Below, in pieces: positions 3 to 46,686 of a DNA stretch of 64,000 nucleotides (its first letter is position 1; each line of letters starts with the position of its first letter). The notes under the pieces are model-generated. The model was given only the letters and a program-made list of their open reading frames with translations. It was not told the DNA's origin and ran no database searches. The stretch covers positions 19,959-83,958 of the forward strand of contig CANJDH010000006.1 of the NCBI GenBank assembly GCA_947473125.1. Direction: 5' to 3'. The DNA is from Burkholderiales bacterium. Lineage in GTDB: Bacteria; Pseudomonadota; Gammaproteobacteria; Burkholderiales; JAEUOS01. The position numbers and the translations under genes were made by a program.

Positions 3-824
3 TTTGCCTCCGGCCGCCACAAGCAATTGAAGGTCACACCGGACGACAACAAGGTCGACTTGTTCATGTTTGTGTTGCTGGTCGCCCTGGTCCAGCCGCT
101 GATCTTTGCGCTCACCGGCAAGGCCGGTGCGCTGCTTTTTCCCGAGGCCAGCGGCGCACTGGCATGGATGCCCTGGTGGGCCATGTTCGGCATCCTGCTG
201 CTGGCCGACGACATGACGCAATACTGGTGGCACCGGCTGTCGCACACGCCGCTGCTGTGGCCGCTGCATCGCGCGCACCACACGGCGCAGTACATGAGCA
301 TGCGCATGACCTATCGCAATAACTTCTTCTATTACCTGATGATGCCGGGGCTATGGATCTCCGGCTGCTTGATCTATCTCGGGTTCGGCAACGTCTATCT
401 CGTATACATCATCATCAAGCTCACCGTGATCATGGGCGCGCACTGCGCCGTGCCCTGGGACGAGCGGCTCTACCGGATCAAGGCCCTCGGCCCCCTGATG
501 TGGGTGGTGGAGCGCACCATCTCGACGCCGGCGACGCACTGGGCGCATCATGCGATGACCAACCAGGACGGTGTCGGCCATTACAAGGGCAACTTCGGCA
601 ATCTGCTGTTTTTCTGGGACATCCTGTTCGGCAGCGCGCACATCACGCGGCGCTACCCGCCGCAGGTGGGCCTGAAGGACGACCAGCTGTTCGGCAAGGA
701 GCGCTGGTTTACCGAAATGTTTTATCCGCTGCTGACCTCAAGGCGCGAGCATTCGGCGCTGTCCCCCGGCGGCAAGGCCTACGCCGAGGCGGAAACTGCG
801 ATGCCGCCGGTGCGCGGCGCGTGA
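3..824 (+). CDS. Sterol desaturase / fatty acid hydroxylase family protein (5' end lies outside the window)
   Basis: Membrane protein with histidine clusters HRLSH, HRAHH and HWAHH; the frame stays open to the window edge, so the listed start at 27 is probably internal. Confidence 0.85.
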   Translation, partial: FASGRHKQLKVTPDDNKVDLFMFVLLVALVQPLIFALTGKAGALLFPEASGALAWMPWWAMFGILLLADDMTQYWWHRLSHTPLLWPLHRAHHTAQYMSMRMTYRNNFFYYLMMPGLWISGCLIYLGFGNVYLVYIIIKLTVIMGAHCAVPWDERLYRIKALGPLMWVVERTISTPATHWAHHAMTNQDGVGHYKGNFGNLLFFWDILFGSAHITRRYPPQVGLKDDQLFGKERWFTEMFYPLLTSRREHSALSPGGKAYAEAETAMPPVRGA

Positions 825-869: not shown

Positions 870-937
870 CAATTGGGGGATGGCGGCAGCATCTGCAACA
901 CAGGTATAACCTGTGCTGCAGATGCCGACCCCAATTG
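870..937 (+). promoter_or_regulatory. Nested inverted repeat spanning the start of the NRAMP gene
   Basis: CAATTGGGG (870-878) pairs with CCCCAATTG (929-937); inside it GCATCTGCA-A-CACAGGT-ATA-ACCTGTG-C-TGCAGATGC (889-925). Confidence 0.6.
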
Positions 938-2220
938 ACCTGATCCGCCGCTTCACGCGCGCCTCTTCGCTGGGGCCGGTCCTGAAACAGCTCGGGCCCG
1001 GGCTCATCACCGGTGCCGCCGACGACGACCCGAGCGGCATCGCCACCTACTCGCAGGCGGGGGCTCAGTTCGGCTTCAACATGCTGTGGACGGTGATCCT
1101 CACCTATCCGTTGATGGCGGCGATCCAGATGGTGAGTGCACGGCTCGGCGTCGTGACTGGCCGTGGGCTGGCGGCAAACATCCGGCGTGGCTTTGCGCCG
1201 GCGCTGCTGTACGGCATCGTGCTGCTGTTTGTGGTCGCCAATACCATCAATATCGCAGCCGACATCGCGGCGATGGCCGATGCGCTGCACTTGTTCCTCG
1301 GAGGACCGCGGCATGTGTATTCCCTGTTCTTCGGGCTGCTGTGCCTGGTCTTGCAGGTGTTTCTGTCGTACCAGCGCTATGTGCGTTACCTCAAATGGCT
1401 TACGCTGGCCCTACTTTCCTACGTGGCAGTGGCATTTACCGTGCATGTGCCGTGGGGCGAGGTGGTGCGCGCCTCCCTCTGGCCGAGCCTGGCCTGGAAC
1501 AACAACACGCTGATGATGGTGGTGGCGATATTCGGCACCACCATCAGCCCGTATCTGTTTTTCTGGCAGGCGGCACAGGAGGTCGAAGACCTGCGTGCGA
1601 CGCCAGGGGCCGCCAGCCTGCGCCGCGAGCCGGCCGGCGCGCTGGCGCGGCTGCGTCGCATCAAGGTCGATACCTGGGTCGGCATGGGTTTCTCCAATCT
1701 GGTGGCGTTTTTCATCATCCTGTCCACCGCCGTGACGCTGCACGCCGCCGGCCTGGTGAACATCCAGACTTCGGCCGATGCGGCACAGGCGTTGCGTCCG
1801 CTCGCCGGCGAGTTTGCGTTCCTGCTGTTCGGCCTGGGCATCATCGGCACCGGTCTGCTCGCCGTGCCGGTGCTGGCCGGTTCAGCCGCGTACGCGGTGG
1901 CCGAGACGTTTCACTGGAAGACCGGGCTCGATCTGAAATGGCCGGCGCAAGGGCGCGGCTTCTACGGCATCATCGCGATCGCGACCATGGGGGGCGCGCT
2001 GATCGATTTCCTGCCGGTTGATCCGATCAAGGCGCTGTTCTGGAGCGCCGTGATCAACGGCGTGATCGCCGTGCCGATCATGGCCATGATGATGGTGCTG
2101 GCCAGCTCCCGGCGCATCATGGGGGACTTCACGCTGTCGCTGCGGCATAGCGTGCTTGGCTGGGTCGCGACGGGCGTGATGCTGGCAGCCGTGCTGGCGA
2201 TGCTCGGCACCTGGCTCTGA
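922..2220 (+). CDS. NRAMP family divalent metal (Mn2+/Fe2+) transporter
   Basis: GPGLITGAADDDPSGIATYSQAGAQFG is the NRAMP TM1 signature; polytopic. GTG at 913 is an alternative start. Confidence 0.9.
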   Translation: MPTPIDLIRRFTRASSLGPVLKQLGPGLITGAADDDPSGIATYSQAGAQFGFNMLWTVILTYPLMAAIQMVSARLGVVTGRGLAANIRRGFAPALLYGIVLLFVVANTINIAADIAAMADALHLFLGGPRHVYSLFFGLLCLVLQVFLSYQRYVRYLKWLTLALLSYVAVAFTVHVPWGEVVRASLWPSLAWNNNTLMMVVAIFGTTISPYLFFWQAAQEVEDLRATPGAASLRREPAGALARLRRIKVDTWVGMGFSNLVAFFIILSTAVTLHAAGLVNIQTSADAAQALRPLAGEFAFLLFGLGIIGTGLLAVPVLAGSAAYAVAETFHWKTGLDLKWPAQGRGFYGIIAIATMGGALIDFLPVDPIKALFWSAVINGVIAVPIMAMMMVLASSRRIMGDFTLSLRHSVLGWVATGVMLAAVLAMLGTWL

Positions 2221-11607: not shown

Positions 11608-12165
11608 CTACATGCGCCCCAATTCGCGCTCCAGTGCCTGGATGTTGGCACGGGTGCGCTCGACCTCATCGGTGAGGCGCTTGGAGCGTTCGGCAAATTT
11701 GGCAATGTCGGTCTCGTCGGCGCGACGCATCGGCACGTTGCCCTGGAATTCACGCTGCAGTTCGGCCAGCTTGCGGCTTTCGGACGTCAACTCATCGCGC
11801 AGGATTTGTTTGCGGTCTGCCTCGCGGCCGCGCGTTTCGGCTGACACAGGTTGGCGCGCTGCTGCGCTGCGCGTGGCCGGCGCGGAGGCGGGCGCAGCGG
11901 CGGAAGAGGTGGGCGCCGTGCGCGCCCGGCTCGAGCCCAGATCGGTGTTGCGGCAATTGCGCGTGTTGCGCGGCTTGCTGGTGTAGGTTTTGGCGCCGGT
12001 TTCGGGGTCGGTACACACCCAGATTTCGGAGTTGGCGTAGGCCGCGCCTGGCAGCAGCACAATCGTCCCGATGAGCAAGGCGGCAGCGATGCAGCGGCCG
12101 GTGGTGCCGCGCTCGTCGGGACGATTGGCTTGCCAGTCGATGGGAAAAGGGATTGAGCTATGCAT
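11608..12165 (-). CDS. DUF4124-like domain-containing protein
   Basis: Signal peptide followed by SEIWVCTDPETGAKTYTSKPRNTRNCRN; coiled-coil C-terminus. Confidence 0.65.
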   Translation of the reverse strand: MHSSIPFPIDWQANRPDERGTTGRCIAAALLIGTIVLLPGAAYANSEIWVCTDPETGAKTYTSKPRNTRNCRNTDLGSSRARTAPTSSAAAPASAPATRSAAARQPVSAETRGREADRKQILRDELTSESRKLAELQREFQGNVPMRRADETDIAKFAERSKRLTDEVERTRANIQALERELGRM

Positions 12166-12256: not shown

Positions 12257-12335
12257 GAAAACCGTTGTGCCACAACGCACCTGGAGGGCAATGCCATAGA
12301 ACCGTTGGTGGGAGCGCCTTTCAGGCCGTTTCTCG
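12257..12335 (+). repeat. REP-like hairpin, copy 2, preceded by a decayed half copy
   Basis: GAACCGTTGGTGGGAGCGCCTTTCAGGCCG at about 12298-12328; GAAAACCGTTGTGCCACAACG at 12257-12277. Confidence 0.6.
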
Positions 12336-37065: not shown

Positions 37066-38217
37066 ATGACGCGCTGGGCCCTTCCCGAATACATTGCCGA
37101 CGTACTGCCGGTCGAGGCGCGGCGCGTCGAGGGCCTGCGCCGCGCTTTGCTGGAGGCGTTTCGGGCGCACGGGTATGAATTGGTCATGCCGCCGCTGCTC
37201 GAGTATCTCGATTCCCTGATGACCGGCACCGGGCATGACATGGAGCTGCGCACCTTCAAGCTGGTGGACCAGCTGTCCGGGCGTACCATGGGATTGCGCG
37301 CCGACATCACGCCGCAGGCCGCACGCATCGACGCGCACCTGCTCAATAGGCCCGGCGTGACACGCCTGGCCTATTGCGGCCCGGTGTTGCACGCCTTGCC
37401 GCAGGGGCTGAACGCAAGTCGGGAGCCGCTCCAAATCGGCGCCGAGTTGTACGGCCATGCGGGCATTGAAGCCGACATGGAAATCCAGAATCTGCTGCTC
37501 CATGTCCTCGAGATTGCCGGCCTCAAGAAAGTGCGTTTTGACGTCGGGCATGTCGGCGTATTCCGGGCACTCGCGGACATGGCAGCGCTTGACGAGGCGC
37601 GCTCCGAGGAATTGTTCGCGCGTCTTCAGGCCAAGGATATTCCAGCACTGCGCCAGTCACTTGGCGATGTAGCCGCAGCGGTACGGGATGCGCTGCTGCT
37701 GCTGCCGCGCCTCTACGGCGGGCTTGAGGTGCTCGAGCGCGCCGAACGCGAGTTGCCGAAACACGATGCCATTTCTGCCGCCCTCGACGAGCTGCGTACC
37801 TTGACGGCGCGGATGCAGGGGGCGCAAGTGAGCATTGACCTGGCGGAATTGCGCGGTTATCAGTACCACAGCGGCGTCGTGTTTGCGGCTTACTGCGAAG
37901 GCTTGCCCAACGCGATCGCCCGCGGCGGCCGCTACGACGAGGTCGGGAAATCGTTTGGGCGTGCGCGCCCGGCGACCGGATTTTCGCTGGACCTGAAAGA
38001 GCTTGCCGCCGTCGTTCCGGGGCATGGCGCCGCCGGCGCCATCCTTGCGCCGCTCGATGACGATGCGGCGTTGCGCGACGAGATCAGCGCCTTGCGCGCG
38101 GCCGGCGAATCGGTGGCGATGACACTGCCCGGCCATGACAAGGCTTCGTGGCGGGCCTCGTGCGATCGTGAATTGCGCAAGCGCGGTTCGACCTGGGTCG
38201 TGGAAAAAATTTCCTGA
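37066..38217 (+). CDS. hisZ: ATP phosphoribosyltransferase regulatory subunit HisZ
   Basis: [47 protein letters not shown]; HisRS-like; adjacent to purA. Confidence 0.94.
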
Positions 38218-46661: not shown

Positions 46662-46686
46662 ATAAACGGGGTCAGACCCCGTTTAT
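46662..46686. repeat. 25-nt perfect palindrome between ompR and envZ
   Basis: ATAAACGGGGTC-A-GACCCCGTTTAT. Confidence 0.85.

Follow-up and report, generated by a model that had tools for sequence, protein, structure and literature searches.

Hairpins that sequester the ribosome binding site protect the transposase genes of IS10-, IS50- and IS200-type elements from read-through transcription. In these systems an inverted repeat situated just upstream can pair with the region of the start if transcription has entered from outside, and only then; a shorter transcript escapes. Strong stems situated shortly after a stop codon are also characteristic of intrinsic terminators and of 3'-end hairpins without a U tract. 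Furthermore, structured leaders are known from Nramp-related genes, some of which (NrmT) are controlled by M-box (ykoK) Mg2+ riboswitches lying upstream of them (PMC4072509). The palindrome described here shares features with each of these systems. It covers the start of an NRAMP-family transporter gene in the window, by which we mean the whole stretch of 64,000 nucleotides analyzed.

A sequence-only reading of this DNA had described a nested hairpin at positions 870-937 with nine outer and 9 + 7 inner Watson-Crick pairs and an ATA loop, i.e. 25 pairs within 68 nt, enclosing two candidate starts of the transporter gene, GTG 913 and ATG 922. Re-reading of the sequence yielded exactly this structure and located both starts inside it (Table 1). 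In the inner part GCATCTGCA (889-897) pairs with TGCAGATGC (917-925) and CACAGGT (899-905) with ACCTGTG (909-915), the two stem segments being separated by a single A.C mismatch (898/916). The resulting inner dyad (889-925) is near-perfect, comprises 37 bp and has its center within TATAAC (905-910), which might be a lone -10 hexamer. The hairpin also contains an asymmetric internal loop (10 nt/3 nt).

Table 1. Coordinates of the nested palindrome, of candidate signals within it and of the adjacent genes
Feature	Position	Strand	Evidence
Fatty acid hydroxylase/sterol desaturase family gene (PF04116), upstream, cut by the window edge	3-824	+	
Outer 5' arm, CAATTGGGG	870-878	+	sequence, fold
Possible upstream ORF, 9 codons, ATG...TAA, MAAASATQV	880-909	+	sequence; candidate coding only
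Inner 5' arm, GCATCTGCA-A-CACAGGT	889-905	+	sequence, fold, ungapped hairpin scan
Weak SD-like AGG, 8 nt before GTG 913, within the stem	902-904	+	sequence
Apical loop, ATA	906-908	+	sequence
Inner 3' arm, ACCTGTG-C-TGCAGATGC, includes GTG 913 and ATG 922	909-925	+	sequence, fold
NRAMP-family transporter gene (PF01566), 435 aa from GTG 913/432 aa from ATG 922	913-2220	+	
Outer 3' arm, CCCCAATTG, part of the NRAMP coding sequence behind ATG 922	929-937	+	sequence, fold

Since the transporter frame is interrupted by a TAA codon in the hairpin loop (907-909), no common start codon other than GTG 913 and ATG 922 is available ahead of the conserved domain. The N-terminal leaders of homologous proteins are variable and often extend about 15-25 residues ahead of the conserved LGPGL, lengths which are consistent with either start. 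The sequence-only reading had found no clear Shine-Dalgarno sequence in front of the starts, a statement that has to be amended by the weak AGG listed in Table 1. The reading frame of the transporter is undamaged, and its alignment with homologues shows 60-70% identity, so that the gene presumably is expressed somehow.

Folding of the region 860-947 (88 nt) gave -41.7 kcal/mol, compared to -24.0 +/- 2.8 kcal/mol for shuffled sequences (z = -6.36), none of the 200 shuffles being as good. When 464 kb of the genome were scanned for ungapped hairpins under strict pairing (match +1, mismatch -3), seven hairpins scored at least 13, one of them being the hairpin at 870-937, while eight dinucleotide shuffles of these 464 kb did not contain any. 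The hairpin is thus real and not expected by chance in its own genome. Although strong, it is surpassed by others in this genome, as it came 33rd among 1647 stems (464 kb) by hairpin energy without G-U pairs, and the start region of the transporter came ninth among 640 genes when plain fold energies were compared. In a strict-score list of palindromes, which like all our genome-wide palindrome statistics covers 1.66 of 4.88 Mb of a 209-contig assembly, it was 16th. Both this score and the start-opening energy given below were adopted once the ranking by energy had put the hairpin in a lower place, and the ranks obtained with either measure have to be weighed accordingly. Intrinsic terminators, one parS-like site and further palindromes between genes occupied the top of the list. 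Ranking by RNA folds that allow G-U pairs told nothing in a genome so rich in GC.

The hairpin begins 46 nt past the upstream gene (about 46-64 nt after its stop codon). Out of 60 intergenic palindromes scoring at least 11 in the 1.66 Mb, 43 followed a stop codon at a distance of no more than 80 nt, and an adjoining T run was missing from 19 of these 43, including the hairpin at 870-937. By its position the hairpin therefore belongs to the post-stop palindromes of its genome. The energy needed to open the transporter start was computed. From a 55-nt leader it amounted to 25.7 kcal/mol (median of the sample 10.4), the fourth highest value of 639 genes, a rank that is approximate since the gene starts of the sample came from a simple, crude codon-usage caller. 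The sequestration of the NRAMP start proposed earlier is supported computationally by this value of about 26 kcal/mol. Transcripts starting at 838, 872 or 880 required 22-26 kcal/mol, whereas in a transcript starting at 917 the opening of ATG 922 required 8.9 kcal/mol, which is below the median. On the basis of these energies a long read-through RNA is predicted to be poorly translated and a short RNA to be normally accessible. A start that is locked in the long and free in the short transcript, as in IS10, is hence what the predicted energies describe.

We tentatively favor the view that a lineage-specific hairpin of the 3'-end type locks the start of the next gene in read-through mRNA and that the transporter is produced from a shorter transcript. 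The palindrome would occupy the usual site of a 3'-end hairpin between the sterol desaturase family gene and the NRAMP gene, its 3' arm doubling as the first codons of the latter. In an mRNA that enters from the upstream gene, the hairpin (approximately -40 kcal/mol) would bury the weak Shine-Dalgarno sequence and both starts, and the transporter would hardly be translated from this RNA. A shorter transcript beginning inside or after the 5' arm could not form the hairpin and would be translated; TATAAC at the center of the dyad may direct a transcription start near 917. The hairpin, its excess over chance, the location of the start within it and the energies are computed, while we infer that transcription reads through, that a short transcript is made and that expression is affected at all. 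If the start is indeed locked in read-through RNA, the locus would be a modest natural case in which a hairpin shields a housekeeping-type gene from upstream transcription, a device usually tied to mobile elements. Unlike the IS10-type systems, the gene concerned is a chromosomal transporter gene, no mobile element is evident and the sequence is single-copy; moreover, an internal promoter can here be guessed only weakly.

To compare the locus with its relatives, 80 homologous loci (approximately 60-70% protein identity, mainly from Burkholderiales and relatives) and a few more from genomes of the same order were fetched. Two of the 84 start regions folded (L009 and L116) represent the locus of the window itself and the other 82 originate from other genomes. 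None of these 82 exhibited a stem of similar quality; the highest strict score among them was 9 (L033), and the mean fold z over all 84 regions, including the two copies of the window, was 0.05. Thus, the comparison on which the sequence-only reading had let its proposal depend turned out against it. The stem is not needed for the basic regulation of the transporter, since the homologues lack it, and a conserved regulatory leader of NRAMP genes was rejected because the pairing is absent from the 82 start regions. Neither the upstream hydroxylase gene nor the downstream 96-codon ORF was detected at the fetched homologous loci at E <= 1e-6, and the collections searched contained no near relatives of the source genome. 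A second copy of the hairpin was not found in its own genome (best other match 22 nt, E 0.1), nor did 399 genomes of the same order or plasmids, phages and viral contigs reveal a convincing match, which led us to dismiss a dispersed palindromic repeat of the REP or MITE type. Parts of the palindrome searched with mismatches in the 1.66 Mb gave a few scattered and unremarkable sites. The palindrome is single-copy and lineage-specific.

Its single copy and its absence from the homologues and from the order sample would also suit a palindrome without any regulatory role, which would have been left behind when DNA was replicated or repaired locally (template switching) and would be tolerated because transcription or translating ribosomes hold it open. 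The lack of a partner motif points in the same direction. This explanation has a real though lesser chance of being correct, as the palindrome spans the start of a conserved gene that is intact, where it would be costly if the RNA is formed.

The hexamer TATAAC, which had been put forward as a -10 region, indeed matches at five out of six positions, but it is not accompanied by a -35 region, and the promoter scan did not find any complete promoter in or near the hairpin. A near-leaderless transcript driven by TATAAC, as also suggested by the sequence-only reading, may exist and forms part of the view favored above, its basis being this lone -10 match. One could go further and assume that the dyad itself holds the -10 region and insulates the transporter gene from its neighbor, so that transcripts from outside fold and silence the start and those of the own promoter alone are translated; we regard this arrangement as rather unlikely. 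Alternatively, the dyad may be a DNA operator, located at the promoter of the transporter gene and bound by a dimeric repressor. This is suggested by the near-perfect dyad of 37 bp centered on TATAAC, and repressor sites over the -10 region are a common architecture. However, within the 1.66 Mb ACAGGTNNNACCTGT recurred just once with at most one mismatch and the 17-mer had no further site with up to three mismatches, the dyad is far longer than the site of one dimer and it has not been kept in the homologues. Such an operator is therefore unlikely.

The location 46-64 nt after the upstream stop codon, in line with the principal class of palindromes of the genome, raises the question of whether the hairpin merely terminates or stabilizes the transcript of the upstream gene, its overlap with the transporter start being incidental and without effect on translation. 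A GC-rich stem-loop as in intrinsic terminators is present. However, the stem is followed by ACCTGATCC, which does not contain a T run, and the terminator scan did not report a terminator at the hairpin, whereas clear terminators of the same genome carry T runs (e.g., L098 14292 and L161 1563). A canonical rho-independent terminator was thus rejected, and a function restricted to the upstream gene is decidedly unlikely. The hairpin also differs from intrinsic terminators and U-less 3'-end hairpins in that its 3' arm codes for the next gene.

The candidate ORF at 880-909 lies inside the 5' arm and in the frame of the transporter. Ribosomes translating it might open the 5' arm and, having terminated in the loop, start anew at ATG 922 or at GTG 913, the latter of which follows the end of the ORF by 3 nt. 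Against such a translational coupling, which we consider very improbable, speak that ATG 880 is not preceded by a well-spaced Shine-Dalgarno sequence, that an ORF of nine codons is often expected by chance and that the homologues lack this leader.

The identity of the transporter bears on the proposal of a metal-responsive dual operator or mRNA switch. Canonical NRAMP transporters possess the metal site DxxN-AxxM. The product of the gene studied here, the only PF01566 gene of its genome, contains DPSG ... TTIS (i.e. DxxG-TxxS) instead and reached 115 bits with the NCBIfam MntH model, far below the cut-off of 430, for which reasons we rejected its identification as an MntH Mn2+ transporter. Its best solved relative (173 bits versus 71 bits for the best MntH) is EleNRMT (PDB 7qia), a Mg2+ transporter of the SLC11/NRAMP family (PMC8806188). 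The metal sites read DxxG-TxxA/T in NRMTs and DxxN-AxxT in NRATs, and the Asn-to-Gly and Met-to-Ala changes described in the same study are consistent with the canonical motif (PMC8806188). The transporter shares the DxxG of helix 1 and a Thr-led helix 6 motif with EleNRMT but differs in that this motif is TxxS and not TxxA/T. Judged by its sequence, it is best read as NRMT-like with a putative Mg-transporter-like site and not as MntH. This site weakens a link to MntR or Fur, and ideas of a switch for Mn/Fe regulation fit poorly.

A metal-responsive leader was a fair idea, since M-box riboswitches control some other Nramp-related genes (PMC4072509). The hairpin, however, did not match any Rfam family above the gathering score, including M-box, yybP-ykoY and other metal riboswitches, and 20 of the homologous loci contained no metal riboswitch but merely one 6S RNA. 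In contrast to the M-box with its aptamer and terminator, to which it has no similarity in sequence or structure, it is a simple start-codon hairpin without an aptamer-like junction. With the stem missing from the homologues, a single copy in the genome and a transporter that is not MntH, we give hardly any credence to a metal-responsive riboswitch or RNA switch, and the dual operator is not supported either.

Some other palindromes were noticed in the window and elsewhere in the genome. A second strong hairpin (window 12060-12127) seemingly coincides with the initial codons of an ORF on the minus strand that starts near 12164. We discarded a family of CAAT...ATTG hairpins comprising this one and 37344-37376, since the members share the terminal four bases only, 37344-37376 is inside a coding frame (crude caller) and 12060-12127 appears in the start of the minus-strand ORF. 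At 46662-46686, 12 nt from a called start, the palindrome ATAAACGGGGTCAGACCCCGTTTAT was found; GGGGTCAGACCCC at this position is its sole occurrence in the 1.66 Mb. The sequence CCCCATGC-TGTTTCACGTGAAACA-GCATGGGG (L140 12211-12242) harbors the 16-bp parS consensus of ParB, embedded in a longer palindrome. Around 12300-12335 the window contains a dispersed, mostly intergenic repeat with the core GAAACC(C/G)TTGGTGGGAGCGG, which is also present at loci such as L128 5463, L146 848 and L105 4111. In the 1.66 Mb, 40 copies of the core AAACC(C/G)TTGG lie on the + strand and 42 in reverse orientation, well above the few copies estimated by chance, and some copies of the repeat form palindromes. One of them (L106 14853-14899) is a perfect 22-bp palindrome of 47 nt (GACGTCCTTCGAAAACCGTTGG TAG ...) on this core, located between convergent ORFs whose products, named by eye, resemble a pseudopilin-type protein and a histidine kinase.
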